DNA from: Peptoniphilus sp. BV3C26
GTDB taxonomy: Bacteria > Bacillota > Clostridia > Tissierellales > Peptoniphilaceae
Length of the DNA stretch: 64,000 nt
Assembly (NCBI RefSeq): GCF_000478985.1
Contig: NZ_AWXB01000057.1
Span: forward strand, 1-64,000
Direction: 5' to 3'
Made by a program: the position numbers and the translations under genes. Numbering within the stretch: the stretch's first letter is position 1; each line of letters begins with the position of its first letter. The notes beneath the pieces were generated by a model. It was not told the DNA's origin and searched no databases. It was given only the letters and a program-made list of their open reading frames with translations. Of this stretch, positions 45,774-49,598 are shown piece after piece.

Positions 45774-45793
45774 GACCTTGATAAATCAAGGTC
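45774..45793 (-). terminator. Hairpin after ricT, abutting the hydrolase gene
   Basis: Perfect arms GACCTTGA and TCAAGGTC, 4-base loop, followed on the minus strand by TATTATTTT and then the next ATG at 45764. The U run is interrupted, so termination may be partial. Confidence 0.6.
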
Positions 45794-46682
45794 ATTCCTC
45801 CAAATCTTTTAGTTCGCTCTCTCTAACTTCTTCATCTTTAAGAGATGAGTTAAGTTGTGTAAAGTTCTTGTTCATTTTTCCGCTTCTTTTTATTTGGTCA
45901 AGATCTCTTATTTCAACTTCTATGTCTTCTCCATTTTGGAATTGAATTTTTACAAGTTCTTGTATTGTATACTTGTCTATGACAGTTCCTTCTCCCCTAT
46001 CTGTCATTACAAATTCTCCCAGGCGAGGCATTTTTTTAAATATACATTCGTAGCCGTCTTGTTCATATTTTAAACAACACATTAGTCTTCCACAAAGTCC
46101 GGATATTTTTGTAGGGTTTAGGGATAATTCTTGATCCTTTGCCATTTTTATGGATACTGGCGAAAATTCTGACAAAAATGCTCTGCAGCAACAGGGCCTT
46201 CCACAAGGTCCAAGGCCTCCGATTTTTTTTGCTTCGTCTCTTACGCCTATTTGCCTTAATTCAATTCTGGTTCTGAAAATTGATGCAAGATCTCTTACAA
46301 GTTCTCTAAAATCTATTCTTCCATCTGCTGTAAAATAAAAAAGAAGTTTTCCCCTATCAAAGGTGTATTCACAGCCTATTAATTTCATATTTAATTTATG
46401 CTCCTTACATTTGTTCTCACAAATAATAAGAGCTTCTCTTGCATCGTTTCTGTTGTCCAGCTGTCTTAAATCATCTTCCGGGCTTGCAATTCTAAGAACG
46501 GGCTTTAATTCCGTTAAAATTTCTTCTTCTTTTAATTCTTTTTTGATTACAACTGTTCCGTATTCAATTCCCCTTGATGTTTCAACTATAACATTATCGC
46601 CTATTTTTGTATCTATATCTCTTGGGTCAAAATAATATATTTTGCCCGTTTTTTTAAATCTTACTCCTGATACGTCAATCAT
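45792..46682 (-). CDS. ricT: RicT / PSP1-domain protein (YaaT)
   Basis: 296 residues with the PSP1 domain (about 60-200). The cysteine-rich blocks GPCGRPCCCRAFL and SGLCGRLMCCLKYE match the Fe-S ligands of the Bacillus Ric complex, which affects RNase Y activity, biofilm formation and sporulation. Overlaps holB by 8 bases. Confidence 0.94.
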   Translation of the reverse strand: MIDVSGVRFKKTGKIYYFDPRDIDTKIGDNVIVETSRGIEYGTVVIKKELKEEEILTELKPVLRIASPEDDLRQLDNRNDAREALIICENKCKEHKLNMKLIGCEYTFDRGKLLFYFTADGRIDFRELVRDLASIFRTRIELRQIGVRDEAKKIGGLGPCGRPCCCRAFLSEFSPVSIKMAKDQELSLNPTKISGLCGRLMCCLKYEQDGYECIFKKMPRLGEFVMTDRGEGTVIDKYTIQELVKIQFQNGEDIEVEIRDLDQIKRSGKMNKNFTQLNSSLKDEEVRESELKDLEE

Positions 46683-47589
46683 TTAGTCCTCCTAACTTCA
46701 TGAGCATATTTTCTATATTTAATCTGAAATTTAAGTTGCTTTTAAAATTATTTCTTGCTTTTTCTAAAATTTTATAAGCTTCTAAGGCTTCTTTTGTACT
46801 TAAATTCAGACCTTTTATTTCTTCTATATAATCTATGTTCAAAATGTTATTTACATTTTTTGTGCTTTTATAAACTGCTAAATCTCTAAGAAATAGGCTT
46901 AAGGTTTCAAATATTTCTTGGAGATCATCCTTATTTTCTTCAAAGAAATTATATTGTTTAAAAATTTCTTCTTTAGATCCTTTTAAAATTTTTAAAAGAT
47001 TTTTTATTGTCTTTTGTCTTCTTTCAAAATTTTCCCCTTGATTTAAGGCTAGGGCTTTTTTTAAAGAGCCTCCTGATATTTTTGAAAAAAGTCTAGCGTT
47101 TTTTCTTATTCCCTTATCTATTAAAAATTCTTCAATTTCATTTTGAGAAAGCCCGTTGAAATTTAAAGTTCTACATCTTGAAAGAATTGTATCAAGGATT
47201 CTTTCAAGATCACTTGTAATTAAAAAAATCGTAAGATATTCTGGAGGTTCTTCCAAAGTTTTCAAAAAAGCATTTTGGCTTTCCTTTGTTGCTTCTTCAA
47301 AACCGTCTATAATATAAACTTTTCTTTTACCTTCAAAGGGTAGCTTATAACTATCTTCTATTAATTCTTCTATGTCGGATTTTTTTACTCTTTCCTTTTC
47401 CAGTATAAATAAATCCGGATGAGCAAAACCGTCTGTATCAAGTTTAAATTTACCCGTTAAAATTTTTCTTGCATAACAAATGGCAAGGGTTTTTTTCCCG
47501 ATTCCTTCCGGCCCTGCAAAGATATAGGCATGGGAAATTTCTTTATTATTTTTTAATTCTTGGGTTAAGTTTAAATTCCCTACAAACAT
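46675..47589 (-). CDS. holB: DNA polymerase III delta' subunit
   Basis: 304 residues of the clamp loader. P-loop-like GPEGIGKKTLAI, then the delta-prime type LEEPPEYLTIFLITSD and SRCRTLNF (sensor 1) motifs. Starts on the last base of the upstream darA paralog stop (TAATG), so tightly coupled. Confidence 0.93.
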   Translation of the reverse strand: MFVGNLNLTQELKNNKEISHAYIFAGPEGIGKKTLAICYARKILTGKFKLDTDGFAHPDLFILEKERVKKSDIEELIEDSYKLPFEGKRKVYIIDGFEEATKESQNAFLKTLEEPPEYLTIFLITSDLERILDTILSRCRTLNFNGLSQNEIEEFLIDKGIRKNARLFSKISGGSLKKALALNQGENFERRQKTIKNLLKILKGSKEEIFKQYNFFEENKDDLQEIFETLSLFLRDLAVYKSTKNVNNILNIDYIEEIKGLNLSTKEALEAYKILEKARNNFKSNLNFRLNIENMLMKLGGLND

Positions 47590-47873
47590 TAAATTCTCAT
47601 ACTCTTTTCAACGTCAAGGACAAAAATTGTTGCACCGCTAAGTTCAAAGTTGCCCCTTTCGTCTTTTATTTCTTCTGTTTGAGTTACTTCTTTTAAAATT
47701 GAGTCCACATGACCTAATTCTTCATCTTCAACCCCTAAAAAAAGAGTTGTATTTCCAGATTTGAAAAAGCCTCCTGAAGAAGATACTTTTGTTACTGAAA
47801 TATTTTCTTCAAAAAATTTATCTAAAAGTTCATCTACAAATTTATCTTGAACTATTGCAATTATCATCTTCAT
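47589..47873 (-). CDS. c-di-AMP receptor DarA paralog, short form
   Basis: 94 residues, PII-like fold. Shares MIIAIVQD, TKVSSSGGFFKSGNTTLFLGVED and GATIFVLDVE with its neighbour, but lacks about 13 residues between the last helix and the final strand, where the long form has IQPMGIPGQALAALPVKVTV. The region holds part of the binding loops in DarA/PstA, so ligand binding may be changed. Sits where Bacillus has yaaR. Confidence 0.85.
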   Translation of the reverse strand: MKMIIAIVQDKFVDELLDKFFEENISVTKVSSSGGFFKSGNTTLFLGVEDEELGHVDSILKEVTQTEEIKDERGNFELSGATIFVLDVEKSMRI

Positions 47874-47881
47874 ATTATCAC

Positions 47882-48208
47882 CTAATACCTTTTAAAGTCT
47901 TCAACTTCAAGGACAAATACCGTTGCTCCTCCAACAGTTACTTTTACAGGCAAGGCTGCCAGGGCTTGACCAGGTATTCCCATAGGTTGAATGGTTTTTA
48001 TTATTTCTCTTGTTTTACAATTGTTTTCAATTATTTTTAATAATTCATCTAAGGATTGATCTTCTATTCCACAAAGTATCGTGGAGTTTCCGCTTTTTAA
48101 AAATCCTCCAGTAGAGCTTACCTTTGTAACTCTAAAATTCTTTTTTGTTATTTTATCTATCAAGTTGTCGGAATCGGCATCTTGTACAATTGCTACTACA
48201 AGTTTCAT
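47882..48208 (-). CDS. darA: c-di-AMP receptor DarA (PstA)
   Basis: 108 residues from the ATG at 48208, with GGAG eight bases upstream; overlaps the tmk stop by 4 bases (ATGA). Canonical PII-like receptor: KLVVAIVQDADSDNLIDKI, TKVSSTGGFLKSGNSTILCGIED, and the loop REIIKTIQPMGIPG. Binds cyclic di-AMP; downstream partner unknown in the family. Confidence 0.94.
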   Translation of the reverse strand: MKLVVAIVQDADSDNLIDKITKKNFRVTKVSSTGGFLKSGNSTILCGIEDQSLDELLKIIENNCKTREIIKTIQPMGIPGQALAALPVKVTVGGATVFVLEVEDFKRY

Positions 48209-48813
48209 TTTATCAACTCCAATAATTTTTCCAAACATTCATTAAAAACTTCTTCTATTGACCTTGAAGCATCTATAATTTGAAAATCTTTGTTTTTACT
48301 TAAATCTTCATAGGCCCTTTGAACTTTTTTATGAAATGAAATATCTTCTCTTTCCAGTCTGTCTCCACCGTCTGCCAATTTTCTAAGTAAAGTTTTTTCT
48401 GAGTTTACTTTAAATAAAAATACTAAATCCGGTTTTAAGCCCCCGGTGGCAAAATCATTTATTGTTTCAACGCCTTTTCCTAGTCCTCTTCCATAACCTT
48501 GGTAAGCTATGGAGGAAAGAACGAATCTTTCGCAAAGAATAATATAGCCTTCTTCTAAGGCGGGAATTATTTTTTCATGAACGTGCTGGGCTCTACTTGC
48601 TGCATATAAAAGAGCTTCTGTCCTATAATCCATTTTTGTGTTTTGAGGATCTAAAATAATATTTCTTATTTTTTCTGAAATTTCAGTTCCACCTGGTTCT
48701 CTTGTGCGTAAAACTTTTTTATTTAATTTTTTTAATTCTTCATATAAAAGACTTGCAATTGTAGTTTTTCCACAACCGTCAGGTCCTTCAAAGGTTACAA
48801 ATATACCTTTCAT
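48205..48813 (-). CDS. tmk: Thymidylate kinase
   Basis: 202 residues. P-loop FEGPDGCGKTTIASLL, the DR(Y/H)-like region ERFVLSSIAYQGYGRGLG, and a LID with RLERED. Makes dTDP from dTMP. First gene of the tmk-darA-darA2-holB-ricT set. Confidence 0.97.
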   Translation of the reverse strand: MKGIFVTFEGPDGCGKTTIASLLYEELKKLNKKVLRTREPGGTEISEKIRNIILDPQNTKMDYRTEALLYAASRAQHVHEKIIPALEEGYIILCERFVLSSIAYQGYGRGLGKGVETINDFATGGLKPDLVFLFKVNSEKTLLRKLADGGDRLEREDISFHKKVQRAYEDLSKNKDFQIIDASRSIEEVFNECLEKLLELIK

Positions 48814-48914: not shown

Positions 48915-49598
48915 TTATAAAATTTTTTTAGATATTATTTTTAAATTCTTGTCCATTTCATATACAATAGGTTGTCCTGTTGCAATTTCAAGAGAAGTTA
49001 TTTGGTCATCACTTATGTTTTCAATGTGCTTTGTTATGGCACGAATGGAATTTCCGTGAGCTGCTACAAGAACATTTTTACCTTCTATAATTTTTGGTGC
49101 AATTTGATCCATCCAATAGGGAAGGGTTCTTTTAAGGGTGAGCTCCAAAGATTCAAAGTCTGGTATAATTTCTTGGGGTACATTCCTATAACGAGGATCC
49201 CTATGAGCGCTTCTCTCATCATCTTTATCAAGAGCTGGCGGTGGTGTTGTGTATGATCTTCTCCAAATATGAACTTGTTCATCTCCATATTTTTCAGCTG
49301 TTTCTTTTTTATTTAGGCCTTGAAGAGCTCCATAGTGTCTTTCGTTTAATCTCCATGTTTTAAAGGTGGGAACATAAAGTTGATCTGAATGTTCAAGAAC
49401 TAAATTACAAGTTTTTATGGCACGAGTTAGCATTGATGTAAAAGCTATGTCAAATAAAATATTTTCATTTTTTATTTTTTCTCCTGCTCTTATTGCTTCT
49501 TCAATTCCTTCTTCAGATAGGTCTACATCTTTCCAGCCTGTAAATAAATTAAGTTTGTTCCACTGGCTTTGACCATGTCTTATTAATACAAGTTTCAT
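48915..49598 (-). CDS. gpmA: 2,3-bisphosphoglycerate-dependent phosphoglycerate mutase
   Basis: 227 residues. Phospho-histidine motif [39 protein letters not shown] and second His in [11 protein letters not shown]. Glycolytic enzyme. Its start overlaps the end of a TetR gene by 4 bases, an unusual partner for a glycolysis gene. Confidence 0.97.

Follow-up and report, generated by a model that had tools for sequence, protein, structure and literature searches.

Gene order at the locus and in related genomes

The window, i.e., the whole stretch of 64,000 nucleotides of Peptoniphilus sp. BV3C26 that was analyzed (contig NZ_AWXB01000057.1), carries two adjacent genes for DarA/PstA-like proteins, referred to here as DarA1 and DarA2. 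On the minus strand, the gene order is tmk, DarA1, DarA2, holB, and a ricT-like PSP1 gene, as listed below.

48205..48813, minus strand: tmk, thymidylate kinase (PF02223, 170.1 bits), upstream context gene
47882..48208, minus strand: DarA1, predicted full-length c-di-AMP receptor (DarA/PstA-like), 108 aa (PF06153, 140.4 bits)
47589..47873, minus strand: DarA2, predicted loop-less c-di-AMP receptor paralogue, 94 aa (PF06153, 83 bits)
46675..47589, minus strand: holB, DNA polymerase III delta prime (PF13177 and PF09115), downstream context gene
45792..46682, minus strand: ricT-like PSP1 protein gene (PF04468), downstream context gene

The ATG of DarA1 overlaps the stop codon of tmk as ATGA, 8 bases lie between the DarA1 stop and the DarA2 start, and the DarA2 stop and the holB start have one base in common. 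Because of these three junctions, the tmk–DarA1–DarA2–holB block looks co-translated. The mechanical open reading frame (ORF) for DarA1 is 118 aa long and begins at an earlier ATG within tmk (window 48209–48238). We set the start at 48208 by homology, so an automatic annotation may carry the wrong start. Upstream of tmk, at window 48915–49598, there is an ORF of 227 aa; many relatives have an ORF of ~450–480 aa at this place, and the upstream neighbor in the window therefore differs from theirs.

Both proteins passed the Pfam cut-off for PF06153 (27 bits). The cut-off of the NCBIfam DarA equivalog, NF058593, is 140 bits; DarA1 scored just under this value (139.2 bits) and DarA2 scored 82.4 bits, and DarA2 is therefore not classed as a DarA equivalog. 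The classical PII family, PF00543 (Pfam cut-off 25 bits), was not reached by either protein (DarA1, 18.6 bits; DarA2, 16 bits). In the PDB, DarA1 matched PstA/DarA sequences with E values down to 4e-31, and the nearest sequences with solved structures were PstA of S. aureus and L. monocytogenes, DarA (YaaQ), and PEPE_1480 of Pediococcus. DarA/PstA genes typically follow tmk directly, and this is the position of DarA1; DarA2 is the gene after that. Apart from the shortfall of 0.8 bits relative to the NCBIfam cut-off, DarA1 is thus ordinary in the features that were tested. A profile search of the whole genome gave two PF06153 matches, both at this locus, and one diadenylate cyclase (DAC) domain, the c-di-AMP synthase domain. 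The earlier note on this DNA had described two tandem DarA paralogues at 47589–48208, one of them without the region around the QPMGIPGQALA loop, and this description was confirmed, with exact coordinates.

The earlier note had also proposed that the second DarA replaces yaaR. A search of the window's genome (95.8% complete) gave no match to yaaR (PF03885). However, the loci of families f9 and f16 read tmk–DarA–DarA–yaaR–holB, with both DarA full-length; the ORF after the pair was identified there as DUF327, i.e., YaaR (141.2 and 135.7 bits), and a Bacillus record has the same domain in the ORF behind its one DarA (135.9 bits). At several loci of other families with a single DarA, no ORF of at least 90 aa stood between this gene and holB. 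Since a DarA pair and yaaR occur together in f9 and f16, the second DarA is not a stand-in for yaaR.

To describe the distribution of the pair, second copies were read from genomic DNA in a subset of the two-copy genomes, with profile matches listed down to E values of ~4e-34. All 47 distinct short DarA2 lay on one strand with tmk (≤ 150 bases upstream), a full DarA1 directly in front of them, and holB. These 47 loci were from 38 genera and 6 families of the order: 31 from the window's family (its own locus included), 6 from f6, 5 from f13, 3 from f4, and 1 each from f2 and f15. The gap between DarA1 and DarA2 was 3–48 bases, with a median of 10. The absence of the pair from close relatives, which the earlier note had regarded as damaging to its proposal, was therefore not observed, and because the same layout recurs in 47 of 47 loci, the DarA1–DarA2 arrangement is far beyond chance. 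Sequences with enlarged loops (L091 and L097), a fragment (L088), four rows of family f28 with a divergent pair, and identical sequences were left out of these counts.

A PF06153 match was found in 146 of the 149 genomes searched, including the window's own. The other 148 genomes had two matches in 81 cases, one in 64, and none in 3. Among the 89 relatives in the window's family, for which some assemblies are incomplete, 56 had two matches, 31 had one, and 2 had none; of the 39 genera of this family, 26 included a two-copy genome and 12 had single-copy genomes only. The pair was present, for example, in Anaerosphaera multitolerans, Peptoniphilus asaccharolyticus, P. lacrimalis, P. phoceensis, P. 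lacydonensis, and Urinicoccus massiliensis, and a single match was found in the genomes of Anaerococcus nagyae and Ezakiella coagulans. The short DarA is dispensable in this family because 31 of the 89 relatives, some with incomplete assemblies, have only one match. Wherever the DNA of two-copy loci of the order was read, two adjacent DarA genes stood between tmk and holB. In a sample of the class, 196 of 392 genomes had a PF06153 match, and outside the order at least two matches were found in 14 of 168 genomes, a few of which were pieces of one gene. Tandem pairs in which both DarA are full-length were found in f9, f16, and f10 of the order, and in f50.

Ligand pocket and B′-loop of DarA2

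In PstA of S. aureus (SaPstA) and L. monocytogenes (LmPstA), the c-di-AMP pocket sits between subunits, and the residues considered here are contacts of c-di-AMP or belong to the contact motif (PMC4316997, PMC4475381). Numbering follows SaPstA. The following pocket features were located in DarA2, with the numbers of the 47 short DarA2 that have them.

47790..47792, minus strand: Thr28, kept contact (47/47)
47763..47774, minus strand: T′-loop GGFF, residues 34–37, kept ligand-binding loop (G34 47/47, G35 46/47, F36 44/47)
47751..47753, minus strand: Asn41, kept contact (44/47)
47733..47735, minus strand: Gly47, kept contact (47/47)
47622..47624, minus strand: Phe84 (SaPstA Phe99), kept contact (45/47)

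The contacts T28, GGF, N41, G47, and F99 are thus present in both proteins of the window. T43 was found in all 47 short DarA2, and T28, G34, G35, F36, N41, T43, G47, and F99 were each found in all 47 DarA1 partners. The five strict contacts of DarA2 had a mean entropy of 0.22 bits, compared with 1.72 bits for all core columns, and this value was below all 20,000 random draws. The corresponding values were 0.00 and 1.12 in the DarA1 partners (p = 0.00045) and 0.05 and 1.26 in the single loci (p = 0.00015). In 29 DarA2 sequences, the invariant columns were M1, K2, T28, G34, G35, F36, G40, N41, T43, G47, and F84, few of which lie outside the pocket motif. Mutation of this motif in SaPstA (T28A, N41A, and GGFL-AAAA) was reported to weaken or abolish binding (PMC4316997); T28A lost saturable binding (PMC4316997) and N41A bound more weakly (PMC4316997, PMC4475381).

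The short form keeps nearly all of the contacts, with three exceptions in the window copy (R26S, L37F, and G94S). This is close to one of the two outcomes, all contacts kept, that the earlier note had regarded as damaging to its proposal. The three changes, together with a changed pocket residue in 7 of the 47 DarA2, could indicate that DarA2 senses a different ligand, as the earlier note had suggested for one member of the pair, or no ligand. We regard this as improbable, since T28, GGF, and N41 are kept in nearly all 47 orthologues and the contacts are near-fixed in the copies other than these seven. Furthermore, position 26 is Gly in LmPstA, which is competent for binding (PMC4475381), and L37 and G94 contact the ligand via the main chain (PMC4316997, PMC4475381). 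On the basis of its residues, DarA2 probably still binds c-di-AMP, and binding may have been lost in some of its orthologues. Among the seven changed copies, F36 was altered in the DarA2 of L013 (genome G110), L050 (G019), and L062 (G031), and G110, with three changed pocket residues, was also altered at N41 and F99; these three genomes possibly represent lineages that are losing ligand binding.

The second set of features concerns the B′-loop, which has the role of a presumed effector-binding arm (PMC4316997, PMC4475381), and the latch formed by residues 12 and 67.

47933..48007, minus strand: DarA1 B′-loop, residues 68–92 (25 aa), presumed effector arm (from the translation; model strands 66–73 and 86–93)
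47640..47672, minus strand: DarA2 B′-loop remnant, residues 68–78 (11 aa), tight hairpin in the model (from the loop length; model strands 67–71 and 74–78)
47838..47840, minus strand: DarA2 Phe12 in place of the conserved latch Asp12 (D12 in 7/47 DarA2 and 47/47 DarA1)
47673..47675, minus strand: DarA2 Glu67 in place of the conserved latch Arg67 (R67 in 8/47 DarA2 and 47/47 DarA1)

Compared with DarA1, DarA2 lacks 14 residues, all of them within the B′-loop; the earlier note had placed the deletion correctly and put its size at about 13 residues. The long B′-loop of about 25–30 residues is therefore present in DarA1 (25 residues) and absent from DarA2 (11 residues). Across the 47 loci, the loop of the short DarA2 had 3–11 residues (11 in 29 of them), and that of the DarA1 partners had 25 residues in 46 cases and 29 in one. 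At 70 single-DarA loci (12 from the window's family and 58 others), some of which are from genomes with further copies, the loop was 22–29 residues long and in no case shorter than 22; D12 was found in all of these, and R67 in 12 and 56, respectively. D12 and R67 each occur in > 95% of PstA sequences according to PMC4316997, where the pair is described as dispensable for c-di-AMP binding and is speculated to brace the B′-loop. The GGA hinge was also eroded in the 47 DarA2 (G94 in 14, G95 in 34, and A96 in 38) and was complete in all 47 partners. Four short DarA2 (three from f13 and one from f2) still have D12, R67, and GGA despite the loss of the loop, which suggests that the loop was lost first and the latch decayed later.

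The AlphaFold model of DarA2 (56 sequences; mean pLDDT 84.0, pTM 0.71) had a complete PII-like fold, with low confidence at T′-loop residues 35–37. The DarA1 model (mean pLDDT 83.8, pTM 0.68) had a tip of lower confidence between its two loop strands. Among PDB structures, the DarA2 model matched PstA and DarA best, with SaPstA 4d3h first (Z 13.6, rmsd 3.5, 94 aligned), and 4rle gave Z 12.8, rmsd 3.5, and 94 aligned; the first ordinary PII protein was 3l7p (Z 11.9, rmsd 2.6, 85 aligned). These matches were made with monomer models and are evidence of a common fold, not of function. The B-loop of LmPstA consists of strands 67–71 and 89–93 with a long turn, 72–88, between them (PMC4475381). When the predicted strands of DarA2 are compared with these two strands, the base of the arm seems to have been kept and the tip cut out.

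Selection, origin, and shortened loops elsewhere

DarA2 has diverged more than DarA1: the mean pairwise identity was 0.44 for DarA2 and 0.61 for DarA1, and DarA2 was lower in 1,033 of 1,081 pairs. This faster divergence, and the single match in 31 of the 89 family relatives, would be expected if DarA2 were a decaying duplicate. However, this explanation is contradicted by the selection data and we give it hardly any credence. In five close pairs, the dN/dS of DarA2 was about 0.05–0.08 (the pair L054–L073 was left out because its frames were of unequal length and unaligned), so DarA2 is under strong purifying selection; moreover, the frames are open and the pocket columns near-invariant over 38 genera.

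When the B′-loop columns were left out, a tree of 186 sequences had one branch (100/89) that separated the 47 loop-less DarA2 from the other 139 sequences; this tree had 84 usable columns, and many other forks were unresolved. A quick tree of 98 rows, which included 24 of the 47, split the short DarA2 into two parts, but the best tree that kept those 24 together had a log-likelihood 10.33 above that of the quick tree. A single origin of the 47 short DarA2 is consequently likely, although not proven. A tree in which every second copy of the order, full-length ones included, goes back to a single duplication was not rejected (AU p = 0.432).

We also searched 398 genomes of the phylum with a profile of the short form. 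A match was found in 193 genomes, 43 of which had two copies among the matches listed, and nine genomes were followed up. Altogether, 11 other genomes of the phylum were found to encode a shortened loop, and a second DarA was present in 8 of these. Loops of ~9–13 residues, as judged by eye, occurred in G868, G513, G514, G679, and G814; all five genomes also encode a long-loop DarA, whose gene is unlinked to the short one. In the loci L173 and L182 (G513 and G514, which are Firmicutes/Bacillota metagenome-assembled genomes), the tmk-linked DarA is 92 aa long and has a loop of ~9 residues, with D12, R67, and GGA kept. In L182, yaaR lies behind this short DarA, and both genomes have a long-loop DarA elsewhere. 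Loops of ~16–18 residues, again by eye, were found in G554, G590, and G607, which have two copies, and in G524, G620, and G716, in which one copy was detected. The last three are exceptions to the rule that shortened loops are confined to genomes that also have a long-loop copy, and this rule was rejected. Within the order, the long-loop partner follows from the definition of the set, in which the short rows are the second genes of pairs. Two-copy genomes were enriched among those with shortened loops (6 of 9 compared with 34 of 181 among the matches listed; Fisher p = 0.003), with the reservation that the rows are related and the test was chosen after the data had been seen. In the quick tree, five short-loop rows from elsewhere sat apart from the 47, with weak support, and a shared origin with the 47 was not rejected (p = 0.559). 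Shortening may thus have occurred more than once, in two-copy genomes preferentially but not exclusively.

Several other DarA variants were observed. In L086 and L087 (G186 and G157, f28), there is a very divergent tandem DarA pair, the second copy of which is 98 aa long with a B′-loop of ~14–15 residues by eye; no tmk or holB match was present in the stretch read at these loci. The second gene of L091 and that of L097, from members of the class with several matches, encode DarA-like proteins of 131 and 132 aa with enlarged B′-loops. In L093, L094, L095, L096, and L103 (f49, f44, f73, and f29), an additional DarA-like paralogue lies apart from tmk, behind a recurring gene pair. This gene pair consists of an ORF of ~301–322 aa (ABC ATPase-like by eye in the two that were read) and an ORF of 162 aa (DUF1854 in L094, the one that was scanned). 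In L090 (G201, f49), a DarA-like gene adjoins an ORF of 487 aa and a gene for a GntR regulator; the latter includes a TrkA_C domain, and c-di-AMP binding is known for domains of this type.

Proposed role of DarA2 and known systems

The explanation that we favor, with about even confidence, is that DarA2 is a partner without an arm, which binds c-di-AMP as DarA1 does but relays no signal, and so dampens or re-sets the response of DarA1. DarA2 would be a PII-like, c-di-AMP-binding subunit with its pocket kept, the tip of the B′-loop gone, and the D12–R67 latch decayed, and it would be made together with the armed DarA1. By one route, it would hold c-di-AMP and compete with DarA1 for the messenger; by another, it would mix into DarA1 trimers, which would then have fewer than three arms. 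Either route would weaken the response of the armed DarA1. DarA2 would accordingly have no output through an arm, and we infer that its role is to modulate DarA1. In published models, the arms of the DarA trimer engage a three-fold partner all together, and the messenger steers them like a latch (PMC12435418), so an arm-less subunit would be disruptive. PstA of Listeria is described as harmful at low c-di-AMP (PMC12802241). The five genomes elsewhere in the phylum that combine a loop of ~9–13 residues with a long-loop DarA are also in favor of this explanation. Against it, a long-loop partner is not a general requirement for a shortened loop, since in G524, G620, and G716 the shortened form is the sole copy detected. 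The changed pocket residues in 7 of the 47 DarA2, the unlinked short and long genes in the five genomes, the single match in 31 of the 89 family relatives, and the co-evolution result given below count against it as well.

The earlier note had raised hetero-trimers of the pair. Mixing could also be obligate, so that DarA1 and DarA2 work only as mixed trimers; this overlaps with the favored explanation, in which mixing is one of two routes. The adjacent, tightly packed genes in the same order at 47 of 47 loci and the location of the pocket between subunits are consistent with this, and there is a precedent in the PII heterotrimers of E. coli GlnB and GlnK (cited in PMC5448240). However, a mirror-tree test of DarA1 and DarA2 at the 28 of 47 loci with complete neighbors gave a partial r of 0.065 (permutation 0.263), and the controls were higher (DarA2–holB, 0.351; DarA2–ricT, 0.319; DarA1–tmk, 0.274). 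At these 28 loci there was no excess of co-evolution over the background, and the evidence therefore weighs against obligate mixed trimers. DarA also stands alone, with its contacts kept, at 12 loci read from the family, and in other lineages the short and long genes are found at separate places. We consider obligate mixing unlikely.

As the main rival of the favored explanation, DarA2 could be a c-di-AMP receptor that works independently of DarA1. A partner of its own would then recognize the compact face of the trimer formed by the T′-loop and the short hairpin, in place of a long arm. Since DarA2 retains the two half-sites that make up the composite pocket, its homotrimer should bind without help from DarA1, and the 11-residue hairpin is predicted to form strands. 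The missing co-evolution signal at the 28 loci and the unlinked copies in other lineages point in the same direction. On the other hand, the length of the loop remnant varies from 3 to 11 residues, and with few invariant columns outside the pocket motif in 29 sequences, a new docking surface is not obvious. We treat an independent receptor as possible rather than probable. Returning to the modulating partner, a broader version of that explanation is that arm-less DarA are decoy subunits, perhaps built more than once, which set the number of arms per trimer or soak up c-di-AMP and thereby act as a dominant-negative volume control; we offer this tentatively and with more doubt than belief.

If DarA2 does mix into trimers, it would be, to our knowledge, the first decoy subunit known for a cyclic-dinucleotide receptor. 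DarA/PstA is described as a widespread receptor for c-di-AMP for which a partner has yet to be identified (PMC12802241), and its presumed partner-binding loop as largely disordered in crystals and solution (PMC12435418). An arm-less paralogue amounts to a natural loop-deletion experiment that separates messenger binding from output, and the DarA1/DarA2 pair could help to reveal the function of DarA. DarA2, which should bind the messenger but give no signal, could serve as a reagent, and the species with and without it form a comparison set. In a search of the open literature by titles and the beginnings of abstracts, we found no publication on such an arm-less DarA paralogue and no experiment on these proteins.

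Compared with known systems, both proteins resemble DarA (YaaQ) of B. subtilis and PstA of S. aureus and L. monocytogenes in predicted fold, location after tmk, and pocket residues. Unlike these, DarA2 is without the tip of the B′-loop, without the D12–R67 latch, and, across the 47 sequences, mostly without the GGA hinge. The copy number also differs, with two in the window's genome; most bacteria have one PstA, and Sphaerobacter and Thermomicrobium have three (PMC4316997), so the presence of several DarA copies as such was already known. PII proteins have a long T-loop and an ATP-binding B-loop (PMC4316997), and both proteins of the window fall below the PF00543 cut-off. The GlnB/GlnK pairs are similar in that there are two PII-fold paralogues per cell (PMC5448240). 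By its PF06153 match and its c-di-AMP motif, DarA2 is distinct from CutA1. CutA1, like other PII-fold proteins that have no arm, forms a compact, ferredoxin-like trimer without long loops, and GlnB and GlnK both retain the arm. We conclude that DarA2 is a new, conserved variant within DarA/PstA, with an inferred function in the c-di-AMP response.
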